Below, in pieces: positions 7,336 through 48,249 of a DNA stretch of 64,000 nucleotides. The DNA comes from Nocardioides sp. SLBN-35. GTDB lineage: Bacteria; Actinomycetota; Actinomycetes; Propionibacteriales; Nocardioidaceae. Numbering within the stretch: position 1 is the stretch's first letter; each line of letters opens with the position of its first letter. The DNA is taken from positions 1,364,001 through 1,428,000 of the forward strand of contig NZ_VFNU01000001.1 of the NCBI RefSeq assembly GCF_006715725.1, written 5' to 3'. The notes beneath the pieces were generated by a model. It worked only from the letters and a program-made list of their open reading frames with translations. It made no database searches and had not been told where the DNA came from. The position numbers and the translations under genes were made by a program.

Positions 7336-7362
7336 TGATCGGTGCGGCTCGCTCCGACCTGA
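7336..7362 (-). promoter_or_regulatory. Candidate FliA (sigma-28 type) promoter of the flgB operon
   Basis: On the minus strand TCAGGTCG (7362-7355) is followed after exactly 11 bases by ACCGATCA (7343-7336). This is a weaker version of the TCAGGTCC-N11-GCCGATGG motif found upstream of seven other motility transcription units here. The predicted start near 7328 gives a leader of about 90 bases to the flgB GTG. The -10 half matches at only five of eight positions, so this is the least certain member. Confidence 0.45.
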
Positions 7363-7374
7363 GTCCCCGGGGCT

Positions 7375-7387
7375 GGGACTAGGTCCT
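7375..7387. promoter_or_regulatory. GGGAC-type palindrome (possible DevR-like regulator box) upstream of flgB
   Basis: GGGACTAGGTCCT lies just upstream of the candidate flgB promoter, about 53 bases before its predicted start point. The 25 bases from 7375 match the 25 bases from 25308 upstream of cheA at 21 positions. A nested AGTCCC at 7362-7367 pairs with the GGGACT half. The DevR/DosR box core is GGGAC..GTCCC, and a DevR-like regulator is encoded at 30370-31086. Confidence 0.45.
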
Positions 7388-7389
7388 GA

Positions 7390-45019: not shown

Positions 45020-45023
45020 CCGC

Positions 45024-45821
45024 TCAGAGCCCCAGCGCGGCCTGGAGCTGCAGGACGTCCGAGCGGATGGCCATCAGCCGCGCCGGCGCCTGCGCCTCGC
45101 TCATCACGCCGTCCGACACACGGTCCAGCGCGACCCTGCGATGGTGCGGGTACAGCAGCCGGGCGGTCATCTCGTACGACGTGCGCAGCAGGGCCCCGTC
45201 GGCGCCGGAGTGCACGGCCCGCAGTGCGTCGACCATGCCGGCCGGGAAGTGCCACTGTGTCAGCGCCTCGGCGGTCAGCTGCGGTGAGCAGATCCCGTAG
45301 CGGTCGGCTTCGGCCCGGAACCGCTCGACGCCGAGCCCGGTCGTGGCGAGCAGGTCGGCGTACCCGTCCGCGTCCGCCTGGTGGAGCAGCGCGGCGCCGA
45401 GCTGGGCGAGCAGGCCGAGGGAGAGCGCATCCGCGGTGGTCACCTGGAACCGGGGCCCCAGCGCACCGGCGGCCGCGGCCAGGTGCACCGACGTGGTCCA
45501 GAAGTCGTCGGGGAGGTGCTGCCCGTCGTCGATGCCGGCCAGCGCCACGGTCGCGACCGAGCGCACGGTGTTGAACCCGACCACGGTGACGGCGAGCTGC
45601 AGACTGGTCACCCGGCCGGACAGGCCGAAGTAGGCGGAGTTGGCCAGCTTCATCACCCGGGCCGCGAGCGCCATGTCGGCGCCGAGGATCGCAGCCAGCT
45701 CGGCGGCGCCGGCGCTGTCGCTGTTGCTGGTGCTCACGACCTGGGCGGCGACCGGTCGTTGCGAGGACAGCTGGTCCAGCCCGTCGAGGACCGCGTCGAC
45801 GTCGAGGACGGTGTGGTTCAC
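45024..45821 (-). CDS. HDOD domain signalling protein
   Basis: A 265-residue HDOD protein. The core reads ILGADMALAARVMKLANSAYFGLSGRVTSLQLAV (in part) and later LLAQLGAALLH and WHFPAGMVDALRAVH. HDOD proteins are non-catalytic HD relatives that integrate two-component and c-di-GMP signals, often in motility. GTG at 45821 overlaps the stop of the GGDEF-EAL gene, so it is co-transcribed from the candidate FliA-type promoter at 47928-47954. Confidence 0.88.
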   Translation of the reverse strand: MNHTVLDVDAVLDGLDQLSSQRPVAAQVVSTSNSDSAGAAELAAILGADMALAARVMKLANSAYFGLSGRVTSLQLAVTVVGFNTVRSVATVALAGIDDGQHLPDDFWTTSVHLAAAAGALGPRFQVTTADALSLGLLAQLGAALLHQADADGYADLLATTGLGVERFRAEADRYGICSPQLTAEALTQWHFPAGMVDALRAVHSGADGALLRTSYEMTARLLYPHHRRVALDRVSDGVMSEAQAPARLMAIRSDVLQLQAALGL

Positions 45822-47893
45822 AGCAGTGCTCCCCGGCCCGCGGGGAAGGAGCTCCGGCACCACTCCACGAACGAGGGCTCGGGCAGCGGCGGGCTGATCG
45901 CGAAGCCCTGCATCACCGAGCACTCCATGTCGGTGAGCATCGCTTGCTGGACCGAGGTCTCCACGCCCTCGGCGACGACTCCGATCCCGAGATTGTGGGC
46001 CAGGCTGATGACGGCCTGCGCCACGGCGGTGTGCCCGTCCTCCAGCTCGGCGACGAACGAGCGGTCCACCTTGAGATAGCTCACGGGCAACCGGCGCAGG
46101 TACGCCAGCGAGGAGTAGCCGGTGCCGAAGTCGTCGATCGCGACCTGCACCCCGTGCTCGCGCATCTGGCGCAGGATCGTGGAGGCGGTGTCCGGGTCCT
46201 TCATCAGGGCGGACTCGGTGATCTCCACGCACAGCTGCTCGGGCCGAAGCCCGCAGCGCCGTAGGGTCTGCTGGACCGTGTGGACCAGCAGGTTGTCGCT
46301 CATCTGCAGCGCCGACAGGTTGACGTTGACCCGCGCCGGCGCGAGCGCGCCCAGCTGCACCCGCCACGCCGTCAGGGCCCGGCACGCGGTCTCCAGCACC
46401 AGCTCGCCGAGCTCGCGCACCAGGCCGTGCTCCTCGGCGAGCCGCACGAAGGTGTCCGCCGGGACGTAGCCGCGGCGCGGGTGCTGCCAGCGCGCCAGGG
46501 CCTCGGCCGCGACGAGCTGGGGCCGGCTGCCGCCGTACGCGACGATCGGCTGGTAGTGCAGGGTGATCTGGCGTTCCTCGATCGCCTGGCGCAGGTCCGC
46601 GACCAGGGTGAGGGTGTCGTGGGCGGCGCTGCGGGCGCTCTCGTCGAGCACCATGATCCGGCCCTTGCCGCGCGACTTGGCCTGGTACATCGCAATGTCG
46701 CAGTCCCGGATGAGGTCGTCCGCGCTGTGGTGGTCGGGGCCGCGCATCACGACGCCGATCGAGCCCCGGGGCCGGATCTCCACGCCGTTGAGCATCACCG
46801 GCTCGCAGAGCACCCGCAGGATCCGGTCGGCGACGTCGAGCGCCCCGTCCAGGCTGGAGGTCGCGCAGGCGACCACGAACTCGTCGCCGCCGAAGCGCGC
46901 CACCAGGTCGCCCGGACGCACGGCACTCGTGAGGCGCTCGGCAACCTCGACGAGGAGCGCGTCGCCCGCGGTGTGGCCGAGGCTGTCGTTGACGACCTTG
47001 AAGTTGTCGAGGTCGAGGAACATGCACGCGAGGCCCGCGTCGGGCGTGGCCATCGTCGCGTTCACGTGGTCCCACAGCCGGGACCGGCGGGGGAGGCCGG
47101 TCAGCGAGTCATGCGTGGCCTGGTGGTTGAGCTGGTCCTCGAAGGCCCGCCGCTCGGTGATGTCCTCCAGGGTCGCGACGAAGCCGTCGCCCACGCCGGG
47201 CGTGCGCAGCGGCGTGAACCTCATGTCGGTGTGGCGGACCTCGCGCCTGTTGTCCAGGAAGCGGGCCTGCAGCTCCCGCTCCTCTCCGTCGAGTACGGCG
47301 ACGACGGTGGCCGCGATCAGGTCCAGGTCCTCGTGGTGCACGTAGGACATCCACCCGGTCCCGACCAGCTTGTCGGCGGTGACGCCGAGCAGCGCGCAGA
47401 GGGCGTCGTTGACGTGCCCGAGACGCATGCCCTGCTCCGACATCAGGGTCGGCACCGGCGACCGCTCCGCCAGCACCTTGAACCGCTGCTCGTGAGCGTC
47501 GGCCGACGCCCGCAGTGCGACCTCCAGCTCGGACTGCGCCGGATCGATCCGCAGGGCCCACAGCCGCCCACCCGGTGCCGGCGTCGACCGGACCCGGCAC
47601 GCCACGCTCTCGCCGACCGCGGTGCGCAGGGTCACGACGGTGGTCGTGGGTCGTTCCCGGCGGAACATCGTGACGAGCGTCTCGCCGTCGGGTGCCGACA
47701 TGTGGTCGTGCAGCGGCATGCCCTGCAGGTCCGACCCGGCGAGCCCCAGCAGCTGGGTGGCACCCGTGTTGCTCCATCTCACCGCGAGCTCTCCGAGCGT
47801 GCCCAGCTCGACCACCAGCAGCGCCGTACCGGAGTCCGCGGCGGCGGCGTGCAGCACGGCGGCGACGACGTCGCCCCTGGCGCTGGTAGTCAT
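45818..47893 (-). CDS. PAS-PAS-GGDEF-EAL c-di-GMP turnover protein
   Basis: A 691-residue cytoplasmic protein without membrane segments. Two PAS domains (about residues 15-120 and 135-255) precede a GGDEF domain with an intact active site (RFGGDEFVVA) and an EAL domain with AAEALARWQHP, VEITESAL and DDFGTGYSSL intact. It may therefore both make and break c-di-GMP; which prevails is not readable. The ATG at 47893 is chosen because the PAS region begins there. The FliA-type promoter upstream ties it to motility. Confidence 0.9.
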   Translation of the reverse strand: MTTSARGDVVAAVLHAAAADSGTALLVVELGTLGELAVRWSNTGATQLLGLAGSDLQGMPLHDHMSAPDGETLVTMFRRERPTTTVVTLRTAVGESVACRVRSTPAPGGRLWALRIDPAQSELEVALRASADAHEQRFKVLAERSPVPTLMSEQGMRLGHVNDALCALLGVTADKLVGTGWMSYVHHEDLDLIAATVVAVLDGEERELQARFLDNRREVRHTDMRFTPLRTPGVGDGFVATLEDITERRAFEDQLNHQATHDSLTGLPRRSRLWDHVNATMATPDAGLACMFLDLDNFKVVNDSLGHTAGDALLVEVAERLTSAVRPGDLVARFGGDEFVVACATSSLDGALDVADRILRVLCEPVMLNGVEIRPRGSIGVVMRGPDHHSADDLIRDCDIAMYQAKSRGKGRIMVLDESARSAAHDTLTLVADLRQAIEERQITLHYQPIVAYGGSRPQLVAAEALARWQHPRRGYVPADTFVRLAEEHGLVRELGELVLETACRALTAWRVQLGALAPARVNVNLSALQMSDNLLVHTVQQTLRRCGLRPEQLCVEITESALMKDPDTASTILRQMREHGVQVAIDDFGTGYSSLAYLRRLPVSYLKVDRSFVAELEDGHTAVAQAVISLAHNLGIGVVAEGVETSVQQAMLTDMECSVMQGFAISPPLPEPSFVEWCRSSFPAGRGALL

Positions 47894-48249
47894 GGGGTCC
47901 TCGCTTCGGGTGGTCCGGTCGCCTGCTCCATCGGCGGACGAGGCCCGAACCTGACCCGACGCGTCGCCGGGTGCGCCGGGCCCGGCCACCGGTGATGTGA
48001 CGGGTGGGGCGGATGGGGCATTCACGGGGTGACACCGCTCACCGCGACCCGCTGGGAGAGCCCTCGCCAAGTTGCGCTTCGCGGTGGACCCCTGTTCTCG
48101 TGGATGACTGACGGCCGGGATCGGGAAGCAGTTCCTCGACCAGCTCACCACCGATCCGACCGCCACCGCAGCCGCCTCGCGCGGGTGCAACGGGGGGTTG
48201 GATCCGAGCTGGTCGCTCGAGGCCCGGGCAGTACGACGTTCGGAGAATC
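47894..48249. other. 356-bp divergent intergenic region between the GGDEF-EAL gene and rpfB
   Basis: It holds the FliA-type promoter of the GGDEF-EAL operon on the minus strand at 47928-47954. The rpfB side (about 48000-48249) is long for a leader. I looked for the c-di-AMP (ydaO) riboswitch that often precedes rpf genes and could not recognise its conserved elements. No convincing gene or terminator was seen. Confidence 0.5.
47928..47954 (-). promoter_or_regulatory. FliA-type promoter of the GGDEF-EAL/HDOD operon
   Basis: Minus strand: TCAGGTTC (47954-47947), 11 bases, GCCGATGG (47935-47928), 35 bases before the ATG. Nearly identical to the cheR promoter although 36 kb away and outside the motility island. 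Confidence 0.6.

Follow-up and report, generated by a model that had tools for sequence, protein, structure and literature searches.

Eight sites upstream of flagellar, chemotaxis and signalling genes in Nocardioides sp. SLBN-35 are very probably promoters read by the FliA (sigma-28) holoenzyme, the site of fliS being doubtful, and would constitute a single regulon that includes paired promoters between cheR and cheB. They lie in a 64,000-nucleotide (nt) stretch, hereafter the window, corresponding to bases 1,364,001-1,428,000 of one 5.37 Mb contig (72% guanine plus cytosine, GC). The regulon itself appears to be of a known kind, and the cheR/cheB arrangement is its new part. In the proposed mechanism, region 4 of the sigma factor would contact CTCA(G) and region 2 would contact GCCGAT(GG), with 16 nt between them, and FliA would turn on the rod and chaperone-hook-filament operons, flagellin, the chemotaxis genes and the enzymes of cyclic di-GMP (c-di-GMP) metabolism together.

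The eight sites and their motif

The initial annotation had placed eight copies of a motif with 11 bases between two 8-mers, and all eight are present at the coordinates given, with that spacing. Genes were called with a codon-usage script, and Pfam searches over the window matched FliS, FlgN, FlgK, FliD, flagellin, CheR, CheB, CheA, CheW, a methyl-accepting chemotaxis protein (MCP), GGDEF-EAL and HDOD, together with a rod protein at the place of flgB and a sigma factor with its three regions, the fliA gene whose presence had been announced. The sites and fliA are listed below; bit scores and ranks are those of the relatives' matrix, whose source is given further on.

7336-7363, minus strand: predicted FliA-type promoter of the flgB (rod/basal body) operon; CTCAGGTC..ACCGATCA; 23.3 bits, window rank 2
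12112-12139, minus strand: predicted FliA-type promoter of cheR; window rank 1; conserved divergent pair
12142-12169, plus strand: predicted FliA-type promoter of cheB; window rank 4; conserved divergent pair
16650-16677, minus strand: doubtful promoter-like site of fliS; CTAA at -35, GCCGATGG at -10; 12.9 bits, rank 8
19126-19153, minus strand: predicted FliA-type promoter of fliC (flagellin; fliD next); CTCAGCTC..GCCGAACG; rank 5
21732-21759, plus strand: predicted FliA-type promoter of flgN, flgK and a flagellin-like gene (flgL by our reading); CTCAGGTCC..GGCGATGG; rank 3
25337-25364, plus strand: predicted FliA-type promoter of cheA-cheW-mcp; rank 6
47928-47955, minus strand: predicted FliA-type promoter of the PAS-GGDEF-EAL / HDOD operon; GTCAGGTT..GCCGATGG; rank 10
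20745-21590, minus strand: fliA, the sigma factor most likely reading these promoters; Pfam sigma-70 regions 2, 3 and 4; PDB matches are to sigma factors, FliA and WhiG entries among them

The motif had been described as two shared halves, and the -10 half is indeed common: GCCGATGG is exact in five of the eight sites, as annotated, and the -10 hexamer reads GCCGAT in five and ACCGAT, GGCGAT or GCCGAA in the remainder. The -35 half did not stand in its original form, as TCAGGTCC is exact only in the cheR and flgN sites, the fliS site does not share the -35 half and the full 8-mer is a mere tendency. The common -35 core is instead CTCA (6/8; GTCA before the GGDEF-EAL gene, CTAA before fliS), so that the motif is better restated as CTCA-N16 followed by a GCCGAT-like hexamer, with a spacer of 16 in all eight sites. 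Expressed in the usual terms for FliA promoters, 15 nt separate the -35 tetramer from GCCGAT in 8/8 sites, as expected for FliA, and the tetramer itself is TCAG or TCAC in seven sites and TAAT in fliS, thereby departing from the textbook TAAA. Sites other than those of cheR and cheB lie 28-101 nt upstream of start codons.

One alternative is chance, since a GC-rich genome with codon periodicity yields matches, and these were picked by a reader looking upstream of genes. Several scans bear on it. The E. coli FliA matrix was built from 13 published sites and contains zero bases of the window genome. Over 127,946 window positions it ranks fliS at 3, cheR, cheB, cheA and the GGDEF-EAL gene tied at 4, flgB at 13, fliC at 19 (tied with others) and flgN at 60, which leaves flgN as the one site outside the top 19, the doubtful fliS being inside it. 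The relatives' matrix derives from 39 intergenic sites of at least 14 bits lying close to fliA in 27 of the 29 relatives searched, which are the best FliA matches among 44 fliA-bearing genomes (fliA called at E<1e-70, a cut of our own, in 44 of 120 genomes of the family Nocardioidaceae). These sites were located with the window matrix, and the relatives' matrix is therefore partly circular and only half independent. With it, six of the eight sites occupy window ranks 1-6, and the six window positions reaching at least 18 bits all belong to the eight, versus two such positions in 360 kb elsewhere. The 39 sites have a nearly invariant CTCA followed by G (26), A (10), C (2) or T (1), and the hexamer is followed by G in 33/39 and then by A or G in 36/39; 34 of the 39 are located 42-92 base pairs (bp) upstream of a called start. 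With the window matrix, whose use here is circular, the eight sites are the sole intergenic matches of at least 9 bits, and a further 39 matches at that score have an overlap with called genes, of just 5 nt in one case (19172).

Genome-wide, TCAG-N15-GCCGATGG has nine matches (one for the reversed pattern) and CTCA-N16-GCCGAT has 33 (10 for the reversed pattern). The initial annotation had proposed comparing matches upstream of and inside genes as well as randomised sequences. Half of the classified CTCA-N16-GCCGAT matches are intergenic (15/30, three of the 33 being without a locus and hence unclassified), as opposed to 27,954 of 360,000 sampled nt. The same pattern occurs three times in the window, versus a mean of 0.25 and a maximum of 3 in Markov-resampled windows, and a looser form occurs 16 times, coding matches included, versus a mean of 2.2 and a maximum of 7.

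Conservation in relatives and association with fliA

Orthologous promoters were sought in 20 fliA-bearing relatives over about 10 kb to the left and right of fliA, or as far as the contig extended; genes scoring below 60 bits or offering less than 100 nt were left out. A first scoring gave 17/18 for fliC, 9/10 for flgB, 7/9 for cheA, 10/20 for flgN, 3/4 for cheB, 2/4 for cheR and 0/18 for fliS. Because its matrix was partly made of fliC and flgN sites of the same genomes, that scoring was superseded by a retest using matrices devoid of the tested sites, namely the window matrix minus the tested gene (threshold 14 bits) and the E. coli matrix (8 bits). In this order, the retest found a site for fliC in 15/18 and 16/18 orthologues (opposite strand 0 and 2), for cheA in 7/9 and 8/9 (opposite strand 0 with both), for flgB in 5/10 and 9/10 (opposite strand 0 and 1; 9/10 with the relatives' matrix) and for flgN in 9/20 and 11/20 (opposite strand 0 and 2). 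None of the 18 fliS orthologues has a site with either actinobacterial matrix, relatives' or window, and 3/18 have one with the E. coli matrix (opposite strand 0 with the window matrix and 1 with the E. coli matrix).

The GGDEF-EAL site was followed through 71 of 73 fetched loci, two (L295 and L343) having been dropped for short flanks. The closest named relative found for this protein is that of Pimelobacter simplex (90% identical), followed by Nocardioides species. All five Nocardioidaceae orthologues have a site, at 11.3-24.6 bits, holding TCAGGTC (TCAGGTT in the window) and GCCGA while the spacers have changed. Among the 66 loci outside this family, mainly Geodermatophilaceae by title, a single one reached 15.8 bits, without the -35 core, and the reverse strand gave 1/71 at 10 bits. 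Overall, orthologues support seven of the eight predicted promoters, with flgN the weakest of them by this measure, and do not support fliS as the eighth member that it had been taken for.

Is the fliA product the sigma factor that reads these sites? Several actinobacterial genomes in our phylum sample hold both a WhiG-like and a FliA-like sigma factor, and another member of this class could in principle read the sites. In this genome, however, a single match of the FliA/WhiG class reaches E<=1e-28 (with 6 of 49 candidates scored), and the match listed after it is 29% identical with 76 bits (20 of 49 scored). Moreover, motif abundance tracks fliA presence across the 120 family genomes. CTCAGGT-N13-GCCGA is found 272 times (1.49 per Mb) in genomes with fliA and 155 times (0.58 per Mb) in those without (Mann-Whitney P 4e-13), its reversed control reaching 0.37 and 0.34 per Mb, respectively; CTCA-N16-GCCGAT is found at 5.75 and 4.14 per Mb (P 2e-7). 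A different FliA/WhiG-class sigma is thus very improbable, and we infer that FliA itself uses these promoters.

Some observations nonetheless weigh against this assignment. Both P values ignore relatedness; the contrast becomes smaller once GGT is dropped from the pattern, and fliA-minus genomes themselves exceed the reversed control (4.14 vs 2.02 per Mb). Genome-wide counts by spacer length (13:25, 14:12, 15:2, 16:33, 17:7, 18:3, 19:16) peak at 13, 16 and 19, the period of codons, and coding background thus contributes to the N16 peak. Two 19.4-bit sites turn up with the relatives' matrix in the 360 kb of background, and within a called gene of the flagellar region (L104, genome position 1358734) there is a CTCAGGT site of 22.6 bits, possibly an internal promoter; given these, not every match need be a promoter. 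The flgN site recurs in only about half of 20 orthologues and ranks 60 with the E. coli matrix. Finally, four of the five GGDEF-EAL orthologues have a more distant site, ending 155-181 nt upstream of the matched part, which we estimate at about 114-149 nt from the corresponding start, compared with 34 in the window. Set against chance are the intergenic position of the sites, their ranks with the E. coli matrix, the fliA contrast and a conservation found with matrices lacking the tested sites and despite diverged spacers. For the set as a whole chance is scarcely credible; it is already refuted for most of the eight sites and still possible for fliS. With that exception, the -10 element, spacing, target genes, orthologue conservation and co-occurrence with fliA all support the proposed FliA/WhiG-type promoters. 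As a separate observation, a 19.4-bit intergenic site (L118, 8014, minus strand) lies 84 nt upstream of a gene whose protein start, as we take it, resembles ClpX, and may reflect chance or a real link.

The departure from TAAA at -35 had been tentatively ascribed to a lineage-specific variant, which is only partly right. Outside the family, 24 of 59 flagellin upstream regions in the phylum sample carry a site with exact spacing and 35 do not (some genomes contribute two or more regions, and L185, of 97 nt, was dropped). The second -35 base in those 24 loci is C in 17, A in five and T in two, with 0.10-0.15 locus per base in shuffles. The sampled sequences thus indicate that a TCA -35 element is widespread in Actinomycetota. 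In E. coli as well, some FliA sites have C at this position (PMC4183435). Because C is the commonest base in the phylum sample and is present in E. coli sites, we treat TCA as a probable variant inside the FliA family; our claim is of FliA-type promoters and not of the textbook consensus. Flagellin promoters were used for this comparison as many of 40 distant fliA/whiG loci showed no flagellar-type site around them.

A His-to-Arg change in the recognition helix of sigma region 4.2 was considered as the cause of TCAG and refuted. The 30 family FliA proteins read (of 44 genomes) all have SQ[MIL]R, versus SQ[IL]H in four aligned PDB sequences, and the groups of the phylum at first seemed to fit the idea. 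It was ruled out by CTCAAG flagellin promoters in genomes where the FliA-class sigma factors read all have His (G194, G320, G467 and G494). Two side observations concern the same helix. A group of FliA proteins with EAR or similar in place of ESR (L149, L212, L215, L210 and L220, with the outlier G297) goes with flagellin promoters of the CTTAAC, CTTATG or CTTGA type plus GCCGAC, other members having TTCAG; with few loci, this group possibly represents another -35 class. In one genome, a CTAACC-type -35 element at flagellin (L188) accompanies a FliA with the helix HSAVSQMR (L224).

The predicted divergent promoters of cheR and cheB

The two chemotaxis adaptation genes are transcribed away from a short shared region:

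11247-12104, minus strand: cheR; ATG at 12104, 9 nt past the -10 hexamer; Pfam CheR and CheR_N (from residue 7)
12135-12146, no strand: palindrome CTGAGCGCTCAG, read as the -35 elements of both cheR and cheB, with 2 bp between the CTCA cores
12177-13235, plus strand: cheB; GTG at 12177, 9 nt past the -10 hexamer; Pfam Response_reg (from residue 6) and CheB_methylest

The arrangement of the two genes was compared in 17 genomes. The pattern TCGGC-N16-TGAG-N(0-14)-CTCA-N16-GCCGA matches in 13 of 341 family genomes, in every case between cheR and cheB, and the gap between the -35 elements is exactly 2 in 13/13 although 0-14 was allowed; the reversed version has zero matches in the 341 genomes. Two of the 13 sequences are identical, and in the 12 distinct ones both start codons stand exactly 9 nt past the hexamer, despite variation in the spacers and in the two bases of the gap. 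Three more distant relatives have CTCA cores separated by 68, 36 and 16 nt and still keep the 9 nt at both genes, so that this distance holds for both genes in 15/15 divergent sequences (30/30 promoters). The 2-bp gap looks like the outcome of compaction within one group.

The inverted repeat CTGAG-NN-CTCAG could alternatively be the operator of a dimeric regulator, which would account for a centre of the same 2-nt length in 13 genomes and sits comfortably with one half reading CTCAT in three of the 12 distinct sequences. Each half, however, has the CTCA-N16-GCCGA spacing of the single sites that lack any palindrome, and the halves move 16, 36 or 68 nt apart in the three relatives with each promoter kept. 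An operator is therefore quite unlikely, and paired -35 elements remain our reading.

The constant distance from promoter to start codon, which seems to be constrained for each gene on its own as is the mark of leaderless transcripts, makes it most likely that the cheR and cheB mRNAs begin at their start codons. Little room is left for later starts, given that the Pfam domains begin at residue 7 (CheR) and 6 (CheB). Transcription from promoters farther upstream, producing 5' leaders in which the GGAG after GCCGAT would serve as ribosome-binding site, would instead fit the GGAG that lies 6-9 nt ahead of the cheR ATG, both in the window and in several relatives, and ahead of the cheB GTG in some relatives. 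Such promoters would have to lie within the oppositely oriented gene, the cheB of the window lacks a GGAG-like sequence, and a leader does not require the 9-nt spacing seen in all 30 promoters. We regard leaders as unlikely, if less so than an operator, and favour leaderless transcripts.

Caution is called for on several counts. GGAG overlaps the cheR -10 element and could act as the ribosome-binding site of a longer transcript, and it follows the cheB -10 element in some relatives, cheB in the window being without any Shine-Dalgarno-like sequence. The exact pair pattern occurs in only two of the 44 fliA-bearing genomes (G000 and G006). One of the wider-gap relatives (L392) has a cheR site of only 8.3 bits, and in the one non-divergent case among the 17 genomes (L381) cheB has no site; the cheR site there, at 11.7 bits, again ends 9 nt before the start.

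A distance of 2 bp between the -35 elements probably leaves no room for two polymerases at once, and we infer from this geometry that the two promoters probably fire in a mutually exclusive manner, polymerases competing for one place on two FliA promoters set back to back. A fuller proposal, plausible yet somewhat short of an even chance, is that these mirror-symmetric leaderless FliA promoters, their -35 elements squeezed to 2 bp, let one polymerase at a time pick the methyltransferase or the methylesterase, in which case the genes would be negatively coupled at initiation and the CheR:CheB ratio set by promoter competition. If true, this would be the opposite of the positive coupling of E. 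coli, where cheR and cheB are translationally coupled, a link from which the authors expect added robustness (PMC2716512). A literature search listed no paper describing such a cheR/cheB promoter pair, and the word promoter is absent from the main text of PMC10746217. The module makes it testable whether competition between touching promoters stabilises or disturbs the ratio of the adaptation enzymes.

The probable wider regulon and comparison with known systems

Beyond the window, intergenic CTCA-N16-GCCGAT sites stand 39-85 nt upstream of the called start in flhA (Pfam FHIPEP) and in genes for PilZ, PAS, GAF-EAL, GAF-GGDEF and GAF histidine kinase proteins, the PAS-gene site being about 1.2 kb upstream of an MCP domain. 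The regulon thus probably includes flhA, the PilZ protein, the PAS gene before the MCP and EAL and GGDEF enzymes; sites before an ABC transporter or Pfam-less proteins may be due to chance. A third MCP (L101) has no site of at least 12 bits in its 3.4-kb locus, which may not reach the start of the gene. A motile actinobacterium would thereby gain a readable sigma-28 regulon linking swimming to c-di-GMP enzymes and PilZ, as with FliA of E. coli, whose ycgR, yhjH and aer targets we take to encode a PilZ protein, a phosphodiesterase and an aerotaxis protein, respectively.

Other genes of the window deserve mention. A mycothiol-S-transferase family gene and a Pfam-less gene (19195-20739) separate fliC from fliA; in many relatives fliA is directly followed by a gene of about 260 amino acids, flagellin by position. 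At the left window end, a gene collinear with the flagellar genes encodes a protein with NlpC/P60 and SLT transglycosylase domains (104-1045). The window also encodes a second sigma factor containing regions 2, 3 and 4 (31944-32630); upstream of it, on the other strand, is a gene for a 119-amino-acid protein without Pfam match (31211-31570).

Flagellar promoters of Actinoplanes missouriensis reportedly have the consensus CTCA(n15-17)GCCGAA. This is the same class of -35 and -10 elements, the window showing CTCA in 6/8 sites and a spacer of 16 in all. The WhiG promoters of Rubrobacter radiotolerans, as described in PMC8325347, are likewise read by a FliA/WhiG-class sigma factor, have GCCGATAA at -10 and include c-di-GMP enzymes among their targets; they differ by a TAAA -35 element, by serving type IV pili and not flagella, and by a sigma factor held by the anti-sigma factor RsiG. 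FliA promoters of E. coli, as described in PMC4183435, share with the window GCCGATAA at -10, a distance of 15 nt from the -35 tetramer to GCCGAT, and the same target classes (flagellin, chemotaxis operons, ycgR, yhjH and aer), whereas their -35 element is mostly TAAA, with TCAA occurring, and that of the window is TCAG or TCAC in seven sites. Finally, cheR and cheB belong to one operon in E. coli but are divergent in the window. Competition between divergent overlapping promoters and leaderless mRNAs are both known in bacteria; here the two would be brought together, under a single flagellar sigma factor, for the antagonists cheR and cheB.

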